From Dysidea avara (Eukaryota > Porifera > Demospongiae > Dictyoceratida > Dysideidae): a stretch of DNA of 64,000 bases. The position numbers were made by a program, and so were the translations under genes. The stretch is taken from positions 1,228,001-1,292,000 of the forward strand of contig NC_089274.1 in the NCBI RefSeq assembly GCF_963678975.1, written 5' to 3'. The notes below the pieces were generated by a model that saw only the letters and a list, made by a program, of their open reading frames with translations, was not told the DNA's origin and searched no databases. Numbering within the stretch: the stretch's first letter is position 1; every line of letters begins with the position of its first letter. This document shows, piece by piece, positions 9,601 through 20,414 of the stretch.

Positions 9601-10595
9601 CAGCTACATGAAGCGGGGTCCGACGTTTCAAGGAGGAAACACTCAAATTAAATGGCCGATAATTGTTAGACTTGGGCTGAAATTTCAACAACATTGACAC
9701 AACTTCCTCATAACCAAAATAGCAAGCACGATACAATGCTGTACACCCATCAGCATCACGGACATTTAAATCTAATGGAGAATCTTCACTATATTCCTCT
9801 GTGTCAAGCAAGAAAGATATCTTGCCAAGGATTATTTCAACAATCTGCTTATTGCCGTTCTCCAGGCACACAGTGTGCAGTGGTGAGTGACGCTTATCCA
9901 TCATCGTGTCACTAATGAGGGCAAGTTTTGGAGAATGATCCAACAATAGCTCAACTAGTCGTGTGTTGCTTTGTTTGCAGGCGATGTGGAGAGGAGTGTC
10001 ACCACGACCAAGGTTAGGTAATGGAGTCTGATCAGAACAATCCAACAAGAACTTAACTATTCTCTCACAGTTATAACTACAAGCCCTATTGTAAAACGCA
10101 ACAGTACCTGAAGAACACAGTTACTCTAGCATTACCTGTATAGTAAAGTAATATTTCCCAAATCTAACCAACGAGCAGCTAAGTCTTGGTGGTGCTGAAA
10201 CAAAGGAGAATAGGCCTCTTGAAACTGCTCAAAGATGTCTTCTTCCTCAGACACCATTTCATGTAGAGCTATACAATAGTAGTAGTGGATTACATGTTGC
10301 CATGGTGATGACAACTTACATTTTACTGTCTCTTCTTCAGTTCTACTCCGCTGTGGAATAGAATACTTTGCTACAAAAAGCAGTTCATATAAATGTGATT
10401 ACTGTATAGAGTATACAGTACTTATGGGTATATCAAAAGTAAACAAGAAGGTACATTAGTGTGTGTGTGTGTGTGTGTGTATGTGTGTGTGTGTGTGTGT
10501 GTGTATGTGTGTGTGTGTGTGTGTGTGTATGTGTGTGTGTGTGTAGTGTGTGTGTAGTGTGTGTAGTGTGTGTGTGTAGTGTGTGTGTGTGTGTG

Positions 10596-10680
<85 letters not shown>

Positions 10681-13600
10681 TGTGCATACTGACATCTAGA
10701 TAGCATTTGCTTGTCTTGTGTTCATCACATACAAAACTACACACATATAAACATACTACAGATAGAGAGCAACAAAATACACTCACCAATGTGATGGGTC
10801 ACTACAAGAGTACACTTTGGTCTCCCTCGTATGTGGTCCCGAGGTGTCCTCCTCTGCATGTCCTCCACATTCAGTTTAGCCCCATACTCCAGCAACACAT
10901 CCATACACTGCCAGTACCCACCCTTGGCAGCCAGATGTAGTGGTGTCTGCAGGAGTACAATACAACCATACCAATGTTTTTCTGCTCGCACTTTATTGAC
11001 AACATAAACAATTCAAGGGACACAACTTACATGTACTTGTAGTTTACAATAGAAAGTTAACAGACTCAATGGTATATATAGTAGTTATACGGGCACAATG
11101 TGGAGTCTATGAAATTTTTAAACCCGAAGGCCCAGGCTGTAACACACAAGCGAAGCGAGGGCACTACTAAGGGCCTGAGGGTTTATAAATTTTATAGACT
11201 CCACATTGTGCCCGTATAACTGCTTTAGACTCTATTTCACATTACACTCAGATTACTTACCTCATCCATGGCTGTTTCTGCTGTAGGCTTGGCAAAACCG
11301 GATGGTTTTCTTGCAAAAATACTAGCACCATGGCAACTATGCATCCTCACGTGACAAAATAATAGCGCTTGTTAAATCACTGCACGTGAACAATGCATAG
11401 CGATAGGATAAACCTAGATTTTGAGCATATATTATATAGTGCATGAAGGTGTGGAGTATGTTAGAAAACAAGGTGGAGTATATTAGAAATTTATTATCCA
11501 CCCAAAACAGCCTAAATAGAGTCTAAGTACAGTGCATTATAGTCTTTTGCTGACATGTTATGGTATGAGGTACAAAAAAACTTTTTTTGCTCTACCAATG
11601 AACACCTCACATATTCACAATTTGTGTAGAGCCTTCATGAATGTTCATGAAAAATTCTGACGAACATCGCAGAGTTTTATCGTGCATTCTACAGTATGTA
11701 TGTGGCAGCAGCCAAAGACAGTAACAGTAGTACTTTCTCCCTATATAAGATCAAAGGGACATAATGACACTGAAAAAACATTCCTGAGATGACTGATTAA
11801 TTCTGATCAAAGCTGATCACATCACTCATAAGGATTTAGTCATGGACAATACATTACTGCAATTAGTATATTGTATAAGCAAGAGGAAGATCTTCTGTAC
11901 ACCTTCATGCTGTGTGTTGACACATGTAAGCAAATCTATTGAAAGTCACCAGATTCAGCATAGCTCTTACACATGATGAACTGGAAATTACTTGCATGCT
12001 TAAACGATGTAATGAAGTTTACAAAGAGGCAATCTGATTGGTTCAAATTGTTGACTGCATTGTATACCTGACTTCCACTTTAATATTGTTGTCACACAAG
12101 AACTACTGACACACTACACTGCACACTAACATATGATACAGTAGTACTGTATAGTAGGGATTTTTAGCTTTCTTTCCCAAAACTTATCACCCATATATAA
12201 ACCTCACTTTCCCTTCATAACAGCTTGGCAGTGTTGGTTAGGTAAGCCCACATAATTGCTATGAAACTACAAAATTGTAGAAGTAGAAAATTGCTCTATA
12301 TTAACTCCAAAACTACTCAACATAAACAACTGAAACTTTACAGTCAGCAATTGGCCAGTGCAGTCATCACACTATAAGCATAAGCACCTCGTGCTTCAAT
12401 TCAAGCCCTAGCCTGGTATTAAGACACATGCATGCATGGATTAAGAAGGCGAAGAGCTAGCTAGAGTTCGCATCGAGTAAAACAGCTGTATTTATGTACA
12501 GACACAGCACATTTTTAAAAGTGCTATGTTGATGTTTATATGAAGATGGACGTGTGTATGTGTGTTGCATGACTGAATGGCTTGCTTGCCTAGTGTCCAG
12601 GCATGGCCAAAAGTCTACACTGGTCTAGGGCATTCATACAGTATGAGTAACAGCAAACAAACAAGTGTACAAAAGTGTAAGAAAAAATTAGAAATAAAAA
12701 TCAATGAAGTAATTTACACCTGTAGCTATGCTAGTTGACACTTATACTCCAACCATGGCTTTACTATTGACAGGCTAAAGTAGAAAATAAATGTCCACTA
12801 CCATAGCTACAGAAGATGACCTCCCTTGTTTCATTGCTATCAGGGATAGGACAAGCATGCACTACAAAGTGCTAACAATTACAAAACATAGTTGTACTAC
12901 CTTAGTCAGCCATATTACGTGTACAACGATTGTATTGTAATCATTGATGACCACTGTTACTGTTGATGTGAAAGTCATGACCACTACACATTGTCATCAT
13001 TGTAAATCTAATTATTCTATCATTTCTCCCATCATCAATCAACAAAATTAAAATATGCATCAAGCCCCATTAAGCCGCTTCCTCTGCTTTTTGTACAGGG
13101 TCCATTCAGCTCACATGAAATACTTTCAGTACTTGTGCAACGTCACTGCGCATCCACAATTTGATGTGGTCTTGTCGTATCCCCCATGCATCCCTAAAGT
13201 TTCTAATTTTTCTCTACACTTGTGATTCACAATGGTGATTACAGGTTACCAGCTAACACACTAGTGGTATCCCATAGCTACCTCCCATCATAATGCTATC
13301 GTATAACAATACCTCCTATAATGACATCCACTATATCTTAGAGACATGGATGACAAAAGAAGCCAAGAGCCATAACTTACCATTGTTAAACTCAAATCTG
13401 AATCTATAGTTGTCTTTTAAAGGTTCAGTCAATTGCAATATATTTTGTGTCAACAAGAAGTAGACACAAGAAATTCAGTACATAGTAGACTGGGGAGGTA
13501 CAAACACTGGACTGGACCCTTGAATGTTAAAATGCCAGGGGGGGGGGGGTAGGTCATGACGCGTTGATGACGAAATCATCCTCGTCATATAATTACTATG

Positions 13601-16600
13601 AAGATTTTAATTGCATTTTACACATTCCAAAGCACTATCCACGTGTTTACACGTGCTACTCGTGTTCGTTTTCATCAGTGCGGGATGGCTGCTGGCGGCG
13701 ATCCTGGTGCTGATCCACGTGGTCCCTGGGATCAAAACAGTATGGGAGTGTATCTAACTATCCCGTCTTTCAGGTATTCCAACATTGCCCAGGAGTTGAT
13801 GGAAGATGAAGAACCCGTGGGAATTTTGTCAGCTGGGGAGAAATTCTTGTATGTGTTGCCTGGATTTGACGTTCTTGGTGTTGAATTACAACATATAAAG
13901 GTAAAAGGATTCGGAAAAATTGGACCAGAGGAAGAAACTTATGATTTATTCATTAAAAATGACATTTCTTTGTGCCGCTCATACCCTACTTCCATACTTC
14001 TTAAGGATCTTACAGTTGTTAAGGTTAGTGATTACAATAATCACTTGAATACTGTACGTGTATATACTTTAAGGATAATAGTATGTTGTTAGTACAATAG
14101 CTTGGTAATATAGTTCAACAAATTTTGTGATGTCTTGTAGGAAAGTGATTTTAGTAAGAGGATTGTAACAGAGAACCTTCATTTCCCACCACAGGGGGTG
14201 ATAGTGATTTGGGAATGGGAGGAATCATATGACGACAATATAACACATGTGTCCGAAACAAATTCAATTGCGAACAGCTCCAATTCATTAAATTCTAATA
14301 CAGACTCGGATGCCACACAATGTAGTACAGTGGTACAGTCTACAGTGACATTCAAGTGCATCGGTTGCCAACACCGTACTTCTTCACAGGACACATTAGA
14401 AGTAGTTAGTGAATTGTTGGATCAAGGTGAGGCAGTACCAGTCAATGTATTCCCTGAAGAAGAAAATCCTCACGATTCAAAGGCAATCGCATTTAAATGC
14501 TGGGTCAATAACAAATGGAAAAGAATTGGGTATGTTGTTAAAGAAGCACGGGATGCTGTACATGAGGCAAGAAGAGCTGGCATAATTACTCAAGTACCCT
14601 TTAAGTGGGCCAAATATAAATCAAGGTTTGGACGGTCTGGTCCAGGATTATATGCAGGGATCAACATCACAAAGTATGGAGCGTGGGGGACAGAAGTGCA
14701 CAGATGTGCTAGTAGTTGCAATTGATGGTTTCTGTAATCATGCAGTGCTTTGTATACATATTTGATTGTAATAATATTCATTAACATAATCAACTTTAAG
14801 AATGATCAGAATGTTGCGCCATAGGAATGTTCATGGAGTACAATGGGAGCATTGGGTGGTGGGGGTAGTTCCAAAGGCACATTGTGAAACTTTGGTCTAA
14901 CAGCTAAAGTCCCTCTAACAGGCATGGTTGCACGCCTGGGACCAAACGCAGCAGGTTGTTCCCTTCTGGGTGCTCTTTTCTCCTTTGGCTGTTTCAGTGG
15001 GGGCTTGTCAAAGTCAGGATGAGCACCTTCATAGTATCGATGGTGAGCAGATGTATAATAATAAAATGGAAGATCAGGGTTAATACGCTTTGAAAACTGA
15101 GACATGATCTTCCACATTCCATATTTGACCTCCTTGGTGGTGAAGTTCTGTCCGATTGCATCCCTCATCATGCTAAAGAAGCATTCAACATCATCTGTAC
15201 TAGCTGCTCTTGGATTTTCCAAAGGACAGCTGCTATTAATGCGTTCTCGTCGAAGATGTTCCCTTCCTTCAATGTTGGTGGTAACTGCTACCAATGTCTC
15301 CCTGGAAAACCCCAAAACATTGCTTATGCTCCTAAATTGATACAAGTCCATTGAATAAAGACTAAAATATTGCTGTTAATTACCTGTTCACTTCCAAGAG
15401 ACTAAAATCGTAGGATTCTCTATACCACGGCATCAAATCCTCCAGGATAAAGTTGAGCAACTCATAATTGTACCTACATCTTTGTAAGCTAGTGAGGCCA
15501 TGCTCATCACTTGCTCTCCTCCAGTTCCACACCATCCTAATATATCTAGCTTCAAAATCATACCCTCTTTTCTCCATAAATAAGGCCAACTTGGGACTAA
15601 ACAACCGTTCAGCATCCACTACAGATTGTTTCCTTGACCCAACAAATGCTGGATAGGTTAACCCAGAACTTGAGTCATTCAGTGCTTCTACATATCTCTG
15701 CAACTTTAATTTAGCTGGTCCCCCATTTCTTGTGTGACTTGCAATACGCTACATTTACATTACAGTGTAATAGTTATAAAGTCATTTACTAAGTTACTTT
15801 AATCAGGTGGGCTTCATCTTCGCGTTCATAAAAAATTTCATTCGTCTCCGGATGCTTTTCCGGTATGTACATATATGTCTTGAACATCACACCCTTTGCT
15901 TCAAATCCTTTGATCAAATCCTTTGAGTTAGAAACCACTGTAGGAGCCGAGTTAGAAACCACTGTAGGAGCCGAGTTAGAAACCACTGTAGGAGCCGAGT
16001 TAGAAACCACTGTAGGAGCTGAGTTAGAAACTGATGTAGGAGCTAAAAGCAAATGCTGCATCTGGACTGGTGCATGCGCAGTCACTGATGTCTGGGCTGA
16101 AGTAGTCATTGTCAAATCCTGGACTGAAGTAGTCATTGGAAGATGCTGAGCAGAAGTAGTCGTTGTTAAATTATTTGTCAAATTTTGAGCTGAAGTAGTC
16201 ATTGGTAAATGCTGAACAGAAGTGGTGGTTGTCAAATGCTGAACTGAAGTACTCGTTGTCAAATGCTGAACTGTAGTAGTTGGTAAATGCTGCTGAACTG
16301 ACGCTGTTTTAGTTACAGTGTTAGCTGCAAGTATAGCAATGTAATGCTTTTCAGCTACTGCAGGAGATTCAAACTGCTTGGTCAGAATCTTGGTGACTCT
16401 TAACCTACAAGAAGCACCTGCAAGATGCACTGTTAACCACTTCATTTAATTTATGAATTGCAAATCTTACCAGTTCGACAATGTGAAGTCCCTGAATATC
16501 TCTGAACAAAAATGCCTGCATCGTTCCAAAATTTCATGTCTTTGTGCACCACTCAGCGCTTCCCATCTGTGTATAGCATCATGAACAGCACTAAGGCATA

Positions 16601-17894
16601 GGCTTCATTATCTGTCCAATTAACTTTCTCAGTTGGTTCCACTGAAAAGAGTGTTCTTCCTTTTGTTCCTGCTCTTAGTCTTGACCGTGAAGACTTGGTC
16701 AACTGAGTTGATTTTGGACTTTCTAACAATTGCATTTCACTTAAAGCATTCATAGTTTCAGTTATATCAAGCATAGAAGTTAATCGGTCCGGAGTACTGA
16801 GTGGTTCTGACATGCTAATACCTCAGTATTCTAATTAATACACGATGCACTAGAAAGTCTACTTACAGTTGGGGCGCGATGGGGCGCGACGAAAAAATCC
16901 GTTATTCCAGTGGAGATAAATTATCACACCACAAATCAATAGGTATAAATAGAATATACAGCAACTTCTCAAATGTACAGTTCAGTGCTGAGCAACGAAG
17001 GCATACGCTACGATTATTGGCATCGCACGTGGGCTTGGCCTACCCCCCCTGTTAAAATGCTACAGTTTACTTCTGATCAGGACAAACAAACCTTATACAA
17101 TAGATCAAGAACATTGTGTTTTGTCGTTGATTGGTTAAATGATTGATTGCTAAACCTCGAAAAAGTTCAAAGCACTAGCTATTCCCTGCTAGAGGGGTAC
17201 ACATACATGTAACACGAACACTACAACAGTTGACCACAAAATATACAATGATTTCACCTCCAAGACATGTTGAATTGTATTTGAGTGGTATCAAGTAACC
17301 TTCTTCTGTGACATAAGGAAATTCATCACTTTGGGAATATTATTTTTTGGGGAATTATAAGTCACCCTAGCTGGCTACCATTACAAGTATTTTGTTAAAA
17401 TCTTTTTCAATACTGTACATGGAACATTCAATATGTATATGAATAGCAAGCACGTGTACACAGACACACAACTGTTTACTGGTAAACCCTAAACTTCAGT
17501 ACAACACAAACACTAACTTGTTTAAGATCTGGAAGAGCTGACTCTACGTTAGGGTTTCCTGCAAGAGGAAAGGAAACATTAAAATGATTATTCCTAGTAG
17601 AAGCTATATGCACTTTAGTACACATACCACTAGTAGCTCACAAATGACATACTAGTTCTTACCTCCATGTGTTAAAAGAATACGTAGAAATGGTGTCAGC
17701 CCTTTGTCTGCAGCAATGTGCACTGATGTCCTGTTGTAAAGTCTTGCCAGTGGAGCATTGATTATCTTCTTACGTTGGGTTGGCTCGTATTTTATTAAAA
17801 AGTTACGAAGTGTATCTATGGTCGCTGCGGACACATCTCCCTTTAATAAGAAATCACGTAGTCTCTCCTGAGGTGTAAATTGGCGAGCCATCAT
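280..17894 (-). CDS. LRRK1: LRRK1-like Roco protein kinase: ankyrin, LRR, Roc, COR, start of kinase (3' end off window)
   Basis: Multi-domain Roco kinase that couples a GTPase-like Roc-COR module to a protein kinase. Exons on the minus strand, in order: 17663-17894, 17518-17558, 10787-10946, 10320-10370, 10136-10268, 7362-10085, 6396-6600, 5105-5224, 4794-5049, 2848-3004, 1907-2106, 821-1767, 280-399. All junctions use GT-AG sites and keep phase, giving 5346 coding bases (1782 codons). Domain order is ankyrin repeats, leucine-rich repeats, Roc P-loop (GCGERGKTT near residues 1127-1135), COR, then a kinase glycine loop (GKGGFG near 1767). This is the known order of LRRK1; LRRK2 has other N-terminal repeats. 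The remaining kinase lobe lies left of base 1. A 6.6-kb intron contains a whole transposon and another intron a hAT-type MITE. The remaining introns hold no other gene I can support. Family assignment is firm; orthology to LRRK1 rather than a lineage-specific Roco paralogue is inference. Confidence 0.88.
574..641. repeat. (GT)n-(GTCT)n microsatellite
   Basis: About 20 GT units followed by about seven GTCT units, in a LRRK1 intron. Just upstream (about 517-555) is a short hairpin whose arms are ACCAGGCGCGT and its complement. Confidence 0.95.
821..1767 (-). CDS. LRRK1: LRRK1-like gene, long exon, C-terminal COR and COR-kinase linker
   Basis: A 947-base exon encoding 316 residues between the COR start and the kinase. 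It includes a hydrophobic-aromatic stretch typical of COR-B (FWFTEFIPNGFWPRLVCRL) and a cysteine-rich run (CWKCCCCC) just before the kinase linker. Function by analogy with Roco proteins: COR is the dimerisation module that transmits the Roc nucleotide state. The five-cysteine run is unusual and could be a lipidation or metal site, but no known motif was recognised. Confidence 0.8.
1907..2106 (-). CDS. LRRK1: LRRK1-like gene, COR-domain exon
   Basis: Two hundred coding bases in phase with both neighbours. They carry the COR-A signature of Roco proteins: LHHQGTLLHFTD followed by NVYFLDPQWLCDMMSSVI, which matches the family pattern of a short helix, 'G.llhf', then 'ldPqWL...m..vi'. Confidence 0.85.
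2848..3004 (-). CDS. LRRK1: LRRK1-like gene, Roc-COR linker exon
   Basis: Reads IPQVYLDLQEAVRKVMVEMR, the link between the Roc domain and COR ('iP..Yl.Le'). Acceptor and donor are canonical and phases 1 and 2 fit the neighbours. The flanking introns (2107-2847, 3005-4793) hold no other gene; the second contains a hAT-type MITE. Confidence 0.75.
4078..4687. mobile_element. hAT-type MITE (610 bp, 8-bp target duplication)
   Basis: Termini CAGAGTTGGGGAAGTTACTT and, on the other strand, CAGAGATGGGGTAACGCGTT form terminal inverted repeats. Perfect 8-bp direct repeats ACTGTTTG flank them at 4070-4077 and 4688-4695. An 8-bp duplication with CAGAG termini is the hAT pattern. The interior is AT-rich with many GTTAC/GTAAC words and has no transposase. 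It lies in a LRRK1 intron. Confidence 0.85.
4794..5224 (-). CDS. LRRK1: LRRK1-like gene, two Roc exons (5105-5224 and 4794-5049)
   Basis: The first exon reads FYSRRSLYLALYRLND then LDSWLRNIK; the second begins LRAPDSPVIVIGTHLD. In Roco GTPase domains the G4 base-recognition motif is THxD, and THLD is present near residue 1235. They are separated by a 55-base intron. The 3' donor of 4794 (gttagt) was chosen because it gives the phase the next exon needs. Confidence 0.82.
6396..6600 (-). CDS. LRRK1: LRRK1-like gene, Roc GTPase P-loop exon
   Basis: Encodes the G1 loop GCGERGKTTLL and ends at the switch II motif DFAGQ (residues about 1127-1182). G1 and DxxG are the nucleotide-binding motifs of Ras-like GTPases, here in the Roc form. 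Intron 5225-6395 downstream holds only a short direct repeat around 6290-6360 (ATGTCACAGATCCTATTA twice). Confidence 0.88.
7362..10085 (-). CDS. LRRK1: LRRK1-like gene, large exon with ankyrin repeats and leucine-rich repeats
   Basis: A 2724-base exon. The N-terminal third has ankyrin repeats (TPLHIACKQSN, SPLHTVCLENG, TALYRACYFGY, TPLHVAVKFNH, TPLAEACAWGH). A serine-rich, probably disordered insert near 9240-9460 interrupts them. From about 8790 down, leucine-rich repeats follow with the LPxxLxxLxxLxxLxLSxNxL pattern, interrupted by a basic stretch (VLRRRRTSVRF) near 8150. Ankyrin and LRR arrays act as protein-binding scaffolds. One exon holding both repeat types is compact compared with vertebrate LRRK1. 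Confidence 0.9.
10136..10370 (-). CDS. LRRK1: LRRK1-like gene, two small exons between ankyrin blocks
   Basis: Exons 10320-10370 (reads AKYSIPQRSRTEEETVK) and 10136-10268 (reads FEQFQEAYSPLFQHHQDLAARWLDLG in part). Phases 1 and 2 agree with the ankyrin exons on either side. No named domain; probably helical linker between the N-terminal ankyrin pair and the main array. Confidence 0.65.
10459..10679. repeat. (GT)n microsatellite with TA interruptions
   Basis: About 220 bases of GT with periodic GTGTAT and GTGTAG interruptions, in a LRRK1 intron. The apparent open frames here are poly(Thr-His) artefacts. Confidence 0.97.
10787..10946 (-). CDS. LRRK1: LRRK1-like gene, ankyrin-repeat exon
   Basis: Begins exactly at an ankyrin consensus, TPLHLAAKGGYWQCMDVLLE, followed by YGAKLNVEDMQRRTPRDH. 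Joins in frame to exon 17518-17558 (ends PDLKQ) across a 6.6-kb intron; the join rebuilds a normal ankyrin loop. Confidence 0.85.
11083..11526. mobile_element. Foldback element with hairpin plus inverted-repeat cassette (copy A)
   Basis: Bases 11083-11221 form a near-perfect hairpin (arm begins AGTTATACGGGCACAATG). The loop holds GCGAAGCGAGGGCACTAC. It is followed by a segment bounded by TTTAGACTCTATTTC (11224) and its inverse near 11514-11526. Inside the segment, on the minus strand, there is an ATG-led open stretch (MHSCHGASIFARKP, then TAETAMDE) that ends in a canonical GTAAGT donor near 11261, like a stranded first exon. A second element with the same plan lies at 60505-61039. No clear target duplication was found. 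Confidence 0.6.
11527..13526. other. LRRK1 intron, no gene seen
   Basis: About 2 kb of AT-rich intron sequence between the foldback element and the HIRAN-carrying transposon. No convincing exon, RNA gene or repeat structure was recognised. Confidence 0.6.
13685..14725 (+). CDS. HIRAN-like domain protein carried by the transposon
   Basis: Two exons, 13685-14023 and 14141-14725, join in frame (307 residues). The start ATG at 13685 has a strong context (gggATGG). The N-terminal part (MAAGGDPGADPRGPWDQ, then a beta-rich region) is unrecognised. The C-terminal part reads FKCIGCQHR, then PVNVFPEEENPHDSKAIAF and KRIGYVVKEARDAVHEA. This fits HIRAN domains: a beta strand, a 'ePeNphDpnAi.v' loop and 'iGYvp.e.a'. 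HIRAN domains bind DNA 3' ends in HLTF, where they are fused to a helicase; here the domain stands without one. A role in element DNA handling is inference. Confidence 0.65.
14806..16813 (-). pseudogene. Transposase-like protein of the 3.5-kb transposon, one nonsense codon
   Basis: Four exons on the minus strand: 16471-16813, 15798-16417, 15384-15748, 14806-15331. Introns are 53, 49 and 52 bases, and total coding length is 1854 bases, an exact multiple of three. The N-terminus has a Myb/trihelix-like stretch (VNWTDNEAYALVLFMMLY, then MKFWNDAGIFVQR and CRLRVTKILTKQF). The middle is a low-complexity run of TTTSVQHL and NSAPTVVS repeats. The C-terminus has PRAASTDDVECFFSMMRD, which looks like the end of a DDE-type transposase, though no full triad could be assigned. 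An in-frame TGA at 16553-16555 (after YTDGKR) breaks exon 1; translation could restart at the next Met. Likely mobilises the element; probably inactive in this copy. Confidence 0.6.
15925..16044. repeat. 24-bp coding minisatellite, five copies
   Basis: Unit GAGTTAGAAACCACTGTAGG plus AGCC, five times in tandem inside exon 2 of the transposase-like gene. It encodes the octapeptide NSAPTVVS. The last copy has diverged. Repeat length keeps the frame, so copy number can vary without breaking the protein. Confidence 0.95.
17518..17894 (-). CDS. LRRK1: LRRK1-like gene, first coding exons
   Basis: Exon 1 (17663-17894) starts at ATG 17894 with MMARQFTPQERLRDFLLKG; a second ATG follows at once. It runs into a partial ankyrin repeat (RTSVHIAADKG, then FLRILLTHGG). 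After a 104-base intron, exon 2 (17518-17558) gives NPNVESALPDLKQ. No signal peptide is seen, consistent with a cytosolic protein. No further upstream coding exon was found before the repeats that start at 18030. Confidence 0.75.
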
Positions 17895-18029: not shown

Positions 18030-18107
18030 TAGTCTCGCGTGCCAGACGGTTTGTGTGGGGGCGGCAAATTTACCGCCCCCACACAAACCGTCTGGCACGC
18101 GAGACTA
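18030..18107. mobile_element. 78-bp palindromic mini-element, 9-bp target duplication
   Basis: Almost the whole element is a hairpin (arm starts TAGTCTCGCGTGCCAGACGG). It is flanked by perfect 9-bp repeats GCCATGGGC at 18021-18029 and 18108-18116. Arms share sequence with the longer element at 19566-20107. Confidence 0.88.
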
Positions 18108-18874: not shown

Positions 18875-18920
<46 letters not shown>

Positions 18921-19138
18921 ACGTGTGTGTGTGTGCACGTGTGTGTGTGTGCACGTGTGTGTGTGTGCACGTGTGTGTGTGTGCACGTGTGTGTGTGTGC
19001 ACGTGTGTGTGTGTGCACGTGTGTGTGTGTGCACGTGTGTGTGTGTGTGTGTGTGCACGTGTGTGTGTGTGTGTGTGCACGTGTGTGTGTGTGCACGTGT
19101 GTGTGTGTGTGTGTGTGCACGTGTGTGTGTGTGTGTGT

Positions 19139-19169
<31 letters not shown>

Positions 19170-19320
19170 CACATGTGTGTGTTGTGTGTGTGTGTGTGTG
19201 TGTGTGTGCACATGTGTGTGTGCACATGTGTGTGTTGTGTGTGTGTGTTGTGTGTGTGCGCACATGTGTGTGTGCACATGTGTGTGTGTGCGTGTGTCTG
19301 CACATGTGTGTTGTGTGTGT

Positions 19321-19360
<40 letters not shown>

Positions 19361-19388
19361 ACATGTGTGTGTGTGTGTGTGTGTGTGC

Positions 19389-19434
<46 letters not shown>
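18875..19434. repeat. 560-base (GT)n array with phased GCACGTG interruptions
   Basis: Alternating GT tract in which GTGTGTGTGCACGTGT units recur every 16-24 bases in the left half and GCACATGT in the right half. Six apparent open frames across it are Val-Cys or Thr-His artefacts. Confidence 0.97.
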
Positions 19435-19565: not shown

Positions 19566-20107
19566 TAGTCTCGTGTGCCAGATGGTTTGTGTGGGGGTGG
19601 CAAATAAACCATCTGGTCACTGTTGCACACATTCTGTGAACTCACTGGAATGCAATTAGATTACATCACGGTATTGTTTTGTGCCAAGGATGATGTAATA
19701 ATCGTTCCAATCACCTCTGTGAGCAGACTAAGACGATAATTGTACTGGTAATGTCCTGGTGACGTATTCGAAACGTTGCTGAACATCTTCCTCTACAATT
19801 CCGCCATTTCACAAATCTGTAGTGAACCATAATCGTTCTTATACCAATGCTTTTAAGAGCCCTGTACTAGGAAAACAAAGATCCTAAACCCATGGCATTG
19901 TTAAACTTTTAAAAAAGTAATCTGTTGCCGAGATTCTGTTCTTTATTACACTAAGAATTTGAATTATTAGTGTTTGTTTCATTACAGAGTCCGCAAAGCG
20001 ATCTGATTGGCTCTGCCAACATTCTGGCAGTGGTCCCGGAATGTGTGCAATAGTGACCAGACGGTTTATTTGCCGCCCCCACACAAACCGTCTGGCACTC
20101 GACACTA
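19566..20107. mobile_element. 542-bp MITE with about 71-bp terminal inverted repeats
   Basis: Left arm starts TAGTCTCGTGTGCCAGATGG, right arm inverse starts TAGTGTCGAGTGCCAGACGG; the arms match for about 71 bases. Direct repeats CTTAATG (7 bp) flank the element at 19559-19565 and 20108-20114. The outer arm sequence is shared with the 78-bp hairpin at 18030, so it is the longer relative of that element. No coding capacity was recognised. Confidence 0.85.
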
Positions 20108-20414
20108 CTTAATGTATTACATTCTCTCATTTTATAATGGGTTTCAGTACTTGTAGACTGGTCAATGCCATGGGACTTCAGATGAGCCACCTGTGTGAAG
20201 AAGTTATAACACTCTAGTGATGCAAGCATAGATAGGGTATGTCTTATATTGATAGGGTACTATCTAGTGATTTAACAGGAGACTGGCATCAGTTAGAAGA
20301 ACTGTTTTTCAGCAGTGCCCTACAATAGCATACAATAAGAAACCAAATTACAAACACAACAAAGCAACAAAACATATACAAAACACATCATTAATAATGG
20401 AATACAACACATGG

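Follow-up and report, generated by a model that had tools for sequence, protein, structure and literature searches.

Can a cut-and-paste transposon carry its own DNA-end-binding protein, and with what kind of transposase would such a protein be paired? This question is raised by an element in the genome of the sponge Dysidea avara, within a stretch of 64,000 nucleotides that we analyzed as a whole (NCBI RefSeq assembly GCF_963678975.1, contig NC_089274.1, positions 1,228,001 to 1,292,000 of the forward strand; hereafter the window, whose first letter is position 1). The element, at 13536-17051, contains two convergent spliced genes: on the minus strand, the remnant of a transposase that is probably a distant relative of the fruit-fly P-element enzyme, and, on the plus strand, a gene for a small stand-alone protein of the HIRAN type. 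The HIRAN fold binds DNA ends and usually occurs in repair helicases. On the whole we consider it probable that the window element is a deleted copy of a two-gene, P-related cut-and-paste family whose HIRAN protein caps DNA ends. A two-gene P-related family is likely, and the window copy is almost certainly internally deleted and non-autonomous; the specific capping role, drawn by analogy, is a tentative proposal. No description of a transposase-HIRAN pair was found in the open-licence literature searched, a search that did not extend to Repbase.

We searched the host genome assembly (550.8 Mb; the window lies on contig C3) for both genes; the match counts are lower bounds. The HIRAN stretch, used as a protein query, gave at least 88 matches, which became 82 loci once fragments were merged. 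The part of the transposase that is absent from the window copy (hereafter the middle) gave at least 98 matches, merged into 92 loci, and the window copy was not among these matches. At 64 of the 82 merged HIRAN loci, a transposase middle was located downstream on the opposite strand within 6 kb (median distance, 1846 bp). Further, the C-terminal half of the transposase lay within the 1.5-kb flank at 28 of the 29 non-window HIRAN loci L008-L036, the exception being L022. Because at least five of these other loci (L011, L030, L031, L033 and L036) possessed the C-terminal half beside HIRAN and no middle match within 6 kb, they are likely further internally deleted or decayed copies. The gene pair is a true transposon pair and not a chance neighbourhood.

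The merged HIRAN loci were unevenly distributed. Contig C14 (15.0 Mb, 2.7% of the assembly) held 21 of the 82 (binomial p ~5e-15) as well as 12 of the 18 unpaired loci, and may be a transposon-rich small chromosome.

Target-site duplications were sought as 9 bp directly outside CAGRGG-type ends in 11 copies for which both ends were available (L037 and L038, together with nine extended copies chosen among the best matches). The duplication was exact in seven copies and contained a single mismatch in one more. None of the control searches, which used lengths of 7, 8 and 10 bp or a right flank that had been either reversed or complemented, detected a duplication in any of the 11 copies. When the same 9-bp search was applied to all 30 merged HIRAN-match contigs, the same eight copies were recovered, and most of the remainder had one end missing. 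The eight duplication-bearing elements were 5137-5926 bp long, compared with 3516 bp for the window element, and the autonomous form of the family is 5.1-5.9 kb long with two convergent genes, for the transposase and the stand-alone HIRAN protein. Over 5150 aligned bp, L037 and L038 shared 99.5% identity, which extended from CAGAGGAGG to CCTCCTCTG; the two copies carried different exact 9-bp duplications, TGCAGCACC and TATCAACTT, as left by recent movement of the family. The original prediction had tied the gene pair, its ends and the duplications to one transposon; in other copies in the host genome the two genes did not prove to be unlinked, and the ends and the 9-bp duplications recurred with them.

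L037 adjoins a reverse-transcriptase-like frame (880-1551, recognized by eye) and seems to have inserted in a retroelement.

In the window, the predicted boundaries were confirmed, and the element is flanked on both sides by TTAAAATGC (13527-13535 and 17052-17060), a direct repeat that matches at 9 of 9 positions. Read inward, both termini are CAGGGG...TAGG, following the pattern CAG(G)nTAGG. Introns of 49-117 bases had been proposed for the two genes, and the GT-AG introns measured 117 bp in the HIRAN gene and 53, 49 and 52 bp in the minus-strand gene. The low-complexity middle proposed for the latter was resolved into 24- and 27-bp tandem repeats, and the C-terminal block was found as TDDVECFFSMMRD close to the C-terminus of the product. 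The features of the element are as follows.

13527..13535, no strand: left target-site duplication, 9 bp, TTAAAATGC
13536..13563, plus strand: left terminal inverted repeat, CAG(G)nTAGGTCATGACGCG, with similar ends in other copies
13685..14023, plus strand: first exon of the HIRAN gene, with an unassigned N-terminal domain that has no Pfam match in the four of four copies scanned
14024..14140, plus strand: HIRAN gene intron, 117 bp, GT-AG
14141..14725, plus strand: HIRAN gene exon 2, including the stop codon
14414..14563, plus strand: Pfam HIRAN match, 17.3 bits against a cut-off of 24.7; relatives reach 30.6
14806..15331, minus strand: final exon of the transposase remnant, with the conserved acidic block and the C-terminal tail
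15175..15198, minus strand: TDDVECFF block, with the presumed third catalytic acid E at 15184-15186
15384..15748, minus strand: transposase remnant exon 3, at the putative insertion-domain position
15798..16417, minus strand: transposase remnant exon 2, with the end of the Myb-like region, the repeats, the deletion junction and the D-x-x-H motif
15807..15818, minus strand: DEAH, a [C/D](2)H-type motif known after beta5 in P transposases
15914..15925, minus strand: internal deletion junction, approximate, placed by comparison with long copies
15925..16031, minus strand: 24-bp tandem repeat, 4.5 copies
16175..16292, minus strand: 27-bp tandem repeats
16471..16813, minus strand: first exon of the transposase remnant, resembling the Myb/SANT-like region of long copies
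16553..16555, minus strand: in-frame TGA within the Myb-like region
17024..17051, minus strand: right terminal inverted repeat, CAGGGGGGGTAGGCCAAGCCC
17052..17060, no strand: right target-site duplication, 9 bp, TTAAAATGC

The element had been described as nearly intact, which proved wrong. Compared with long copies, the window copy lacks approximately 2.2 kb, bounded by the repeat region on one side and on the other by the exon that reads ...EAKGVMFKTYMYIPE, and the deletion junction lies beside the 24-bp repeat. In long copies the deleted stretch encodes the initial portion of the catalytic core, so that residues D385-D409 and D607 are gone, and the DEAH and TDDVECFF motifs are retained. Further, the TGA at 16553-16555 interrupts the minus-strand frame, and the window copy therefore does not have the intact transposase expected of an autonomous element. 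The deletion and the stop together rule out a nearly intact element. Because the window copy is left with one of three presumed catalytic acids and its frame is stopped, we regard it as non-autonomous; it would be mobile only with the help of a long copy, and its product could not be catalytic if the triad is as we infer.

The transposase was described from long copies. In L037, 12 exons separated by GT-AG introns of 47-163 bp encode 1066 amino acids without a stop. The long transposase appears to consist of a Myb/SANT-like start, a linker (rich in S, T and Q in several copies), a helix-turn-helix-like region recognized by eye, a split RNase-H core and a basic C-terminal tail. We aligned 18 transposases, namely 20 spliced copies minus L038, L053 and L062 (two near-duplicates and one badly decayed copy) plus L037; the spliced copy at C14:11071000 stands outside this alignment. 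A number of the 18 are interrupted by stops or frameshifts, and five of the 18 differ little from each other. D385, D404, D409, D938, D939 and E941 were kept in all 18, and D388, D406, D607 and D762 in 17; H765 was near-invariant. D607 and E941 are candidates for two members of the catalytic triad. The DEAH motif (D762-H765) lies downstream of D607, and TDDVECFF appears to occupy the site of the last catalytic glutamate of P elements (helix-4).

The Myb/trihelix-like start of the original prediction held by eye across the aligned copies; as a profile match, PF13837 (Myb_DNA-bind_4) was detected in one of four long-copy N-terminal stretches, with an E-value of 0.0083 that is below the cut-off. 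The transposase had been left unassigned, which does not hold in the strong sense: PF21787, the N-terminal part of the P-element-like RNase H, matched all six core sequences of a subset of the 18 aligned transposases (best E 5.3e-6). When sequences were scanned singly, L058 was over the cut-off of 24.6 (27.2 bits), and L069 (23.5 bits), a piece of L061 (24.4 bits) and a piece of L013 (19.4 bits) were below it. The match spans strands and a helix up to D607.

The putative order D-D-[C/D]xxH-E, a long stretch separating DxxH from the last acid, and a helix-turn-helix-like region upstream (by eye) are likewise shared with P element and THAP9 transposases. The long stretch sits at the position of the GTP-binding insertion domain. 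The [C/D](2)H pattern after beta5 is given as part of the P signature string (PMC8230255), and D762 and H765 fit this pattern. In an alignment with a P-like protein of the same genome, FMVR...SLTGDKGSCN is paired with FMIS...GFTTDGEWN. In contrast to P elements and THAP9, the family has a Myb-like start in place of THAP, extra stretches on either side of the second D, no GTP-binding match, a second gene with HIRAN, and 9-bp instead of 8-bp duplications (8 bp being the size given for P in PMC7776569); exact 9-bp duplications were found in seven of 11 copies and in the window. THAP was not matched in the window pieces or in the four long-copy N-terminal stretches. We suggest that the family moves by cut-and-paste of the P kind, but because 8-bp duplications and THAP were not found, we call it a P-related variant and not a P element. 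PDB sequence searches returned nothing relevant. No relative was detected in viral contigs, which were queried with single sequences as well as alignments, or in prokaryote genomes, which were queried with the transposase core.

Canonical P-like loci are abundant in the same genome, with at least 151 PF21787 matches. Several of these fall into equal-score groups, which suggests recent P-like activity.

The plus-strand gene encodes an open frame of 307 amino acids from exons 13685-14023 and 14141-14725. It had been predicted to specify a HIRAN-like protein without a helicase, and the profile search agreed. Pfam HIRAN (PF08797) matched the window protein with E 0.0074 and 16.5 bits (17.3 bits for the domain alone, below the cut-off of 24.7), and all 19 aligned copies were matched at E<=1, with a best value of 2.9e-7. 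Among 10 copies scanned singly, L028 (30.6 bits) and L023 (26.6 bits) were over the cut-off and eight were below it. The alignment comprised 19 of 24 open stretches; L014, L017, L035 and L039 were omitted as near-duplicates, and L031 because of its odd length. The HIRAN domains of the copies were 42-60% identical to that of the window, and 22 columns were invariant, including E42, N45, D48, I65, G66 and Y67, with N45 and D48 present in 19 of 19. By their position in the NNPYD stretch, we take N45 and D48 to correspond to HLTF N91 and D94.

The HIRAN domains of HLTF and Rad5 share with the transposon protein the profile match and the E-x-x-N-x-x-D and I-G-Y cores. In contrast to them, the transposon protein lacks both an SNF2 helicase and a RING within its chain, carries the extra N-terminal domain, which is common to the copies, has a longer beta1-beta2 link (by eye), and varies at the N90- and Y93-type residues. 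For a test of selection we used 21 sequences, the 19 aligned copies plus L014 and L017. Between the window and the 20 other copies, the proportions of nonsynonymous (pN) and synonymous (pS) differences in the HIRAN domain were 0.28-0.42 and 0.68-0.85, respectively. The dN/dS ratio w was 0.175-0.378 in the sole four pairs with usable dS, three of which had a dS of ~1.55. These values point to purifying selection on the HIRAN domain, in what is not a strong test.

What might a HIRAN protein do in such a transposon? P transposase is described as leaving 17-nt 3' single-stranded extensions that it contacts in the complex (PMC7776569), and the HIRAN domain of HLTF as binding 3'-OH single-stranded ends (PMC11237066, PMC4666394), with changes of N90/N91 to alanine used to disrupt its function (PMC4666394, PMC11237066). 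Because of these two properties, the 3' extensions and the binding of 3'-OH ends, we propose a HIRAN cap. The transposase would bind the CAG(R)GGRGG...TAGG ends, cut there, and join the element to the target strands at points separated by 9 bp. The HIRAN protein would cap the 3' strands in the cleaved complex and help to hold the complex together. Such a cap might also block host translocases of the HLTF/Rad5 type from dislodging the complex via the same 3' end. By analogy, it is plausible that the HIRAN protein reads cut DNA ends.

Several results weigh against the P-related, end-capping reading. Eighteen of the 82 merged HIRAN loci, including the window copy, and 28 of the 92 middle loci were without a partner, and at the unpaired HIRAN locus C14:8203719 a middle match was present nearby on the same strand. 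No 9-bp duplication was found in three of the 11 copies. The first D of the triad is ambiguous among D385, D388, D404, D406 and D409. When single-exon pieces were scanned, PF21787 was detected in just one of nine (E 0.11), and the Pfam models for the P-element GTP-binding region and RNaseH_C gave no match at E<=1 in any of the six core sequences. The spacing from the second D to DxxH is ~155 residues, compared with 36 in the fly enzyme. Direct comparisons with P-like proteins of the same genome were weak. Hhalign with one such protein gave E 0.0028 and a probability of 11% over the corresponding stretch; a second protein aligned in the DEAH stretch alone (E 0.21), and all eight together gave E 0.0022 and 13%. 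With a hidden Markov model of the eight, hmmsearch gave a best E-value of 0.0066 for real sequences and 0.14 for shuffled ones, and the majority of real sequences scored no better than shuffles. The link to P elements therefore rests mainly on PF21787 and the motif order. On the HIRAN side, the structure predicted from the single sequence of the window's HIRAN exon was not usable, with a predicted local distance difference test (pLDDT) score of 42.5. The residue that we place opposite HLTF N90 is variable, and that opposite Y93 is often non-aromatic. Finally, yeast Rad5 HIRAN is reported to have no 3'-OH specificity (PMC7804152), and the fold is therefore no guarantee of end binding.

Some of these results can be read as marks of a new transposase superfamily distant from P, in which the PF21787 match would reflect a shared RNase-H architecture and not P ancestry. 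The match covers the profile in part (62-130 of 137), matches to THAP, GTP-binding and RNaseH_C models are all absent in the Pfam scans, direct comparison with P-like proteins is weak, and the duplications are 9 bp compared with 8 bp for P (PMC7776569). Yet the P model alone among the Pfam matches recurs in six of six sequences, once over the cut-off, and the DxxH motif is placed as in P, and we consider a distant superfamily somewhat unlikely. A related version, in which the family is a separate superfamily and a sister of P with a two-protein reaction (long 3' single-stranded ends made by the transposase, and HIRAN both as their capture protein and as a decoy against HLTF/Rad5 remodellers), is unlikely; if true, it would mean a transposon-made mimic of a host DNA-end reader. 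We also considered a transposase of the Mutator (Mutator-like element, MULE) type. Duplications of 9 bp, as found here, are usual in Mutator elements. No MULE or other Mutator model appeared in the Pfam scans of the transposase, in which the P model recurs, and we rejected this very improbable assignment on that ground.

For the HIRAN gene, the alternative to a P-related family with an end-capping partner is a captured host gene that travels as a passenger without a role in transposition. HIRAN is a host repair domain, the convergent middle is undetected at 18 loci, and the capping role is argued by analogy. A passenger is nonetheless quite unlikely, since the convergent order is kept at 64 loci among copies whose HIRAN domains have diverged to 42-60% identity with that of the window, the window copy retains an open frame for HIRAN alongside its broken transposase, and pN is low relative to pS. 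Internally deleted P elements can repress, and the coding parts on either side of the window deletion stay in one frame, as would suit a KP-like repressor made of the DNA-binding start fused to the C-terminal half. The TGA at 16553-16555, however, falls inside the DNA-binding part, so that the fusion would not be made whole. In addition, the search detected no close relative of the window copy: its five next-best matches at the DNA level are partial and 64-83% identical. We rejected a KP-like repressor as very improbable.

The P-related two-gene family can be compared with other transposons that combine functions. Harbinger elements also bring together Myb-like DNA binding and a transposase in a single element; in contrast to the present family, the Myb-like part is a separate protein, the duplications are 3 bp, and HIRAN is absent. 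RAG-like transposons (RAG1L-RAG2L) are described with a transposase and an accessory gene arranged tail-to-tail between inverted repeats, as here, and differ in their 5-bp duplications and in the accessory protein, which is HIRAN in the present family (PMC7204232). KolobokP and KolobokD are described as DDE transposons with an extra DNA-acting protein, a His-Me or DEDDh nuclease; they belong to another superfamily with another architecture, and their accessory protein is a nuclease and not an end binder (PMC9587614).

If the transposase and the HIRAN protein cooperate, the family would be a cut-and-paste transposon that encodes its own 3'-end binder, using the same fold that hosts use for broken or stalled ends. 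It would widen the P superfamily by another DNA-binding head and by 9-bp duplications, and would add to RAG2L an independent example of accessory proteins that are conserved together with DDE transposases. Further, it would become testable whether transposons shield cut intermediates from replication-fork remodellers. Such shielding is described for cut Cas9 complexes in vitro, where HLTF's HIRAN domain, on its own, inhibits the removal of Cas9 from cut DNA by HLTF (PMC11237066).

A tRNA scan and an Rfam scan of the window were both empty. Beyond the element, a foldback with 34-base arms and an 8-base loop (AGTCTCGCGTGCCAGACGGTTTGTGTGGGGGCGG and its complement) was present at 18031-18106. Two related pieces were recognized by eye near 19572-19612 and 20056-20108, and together with the foldback they look like a family of hairpin miniature inverted-repeat transposable elements. 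Long GT/CA microsatellites were located at 18875-19434 (~560 bp) and 10459-10684 (~226 bp).

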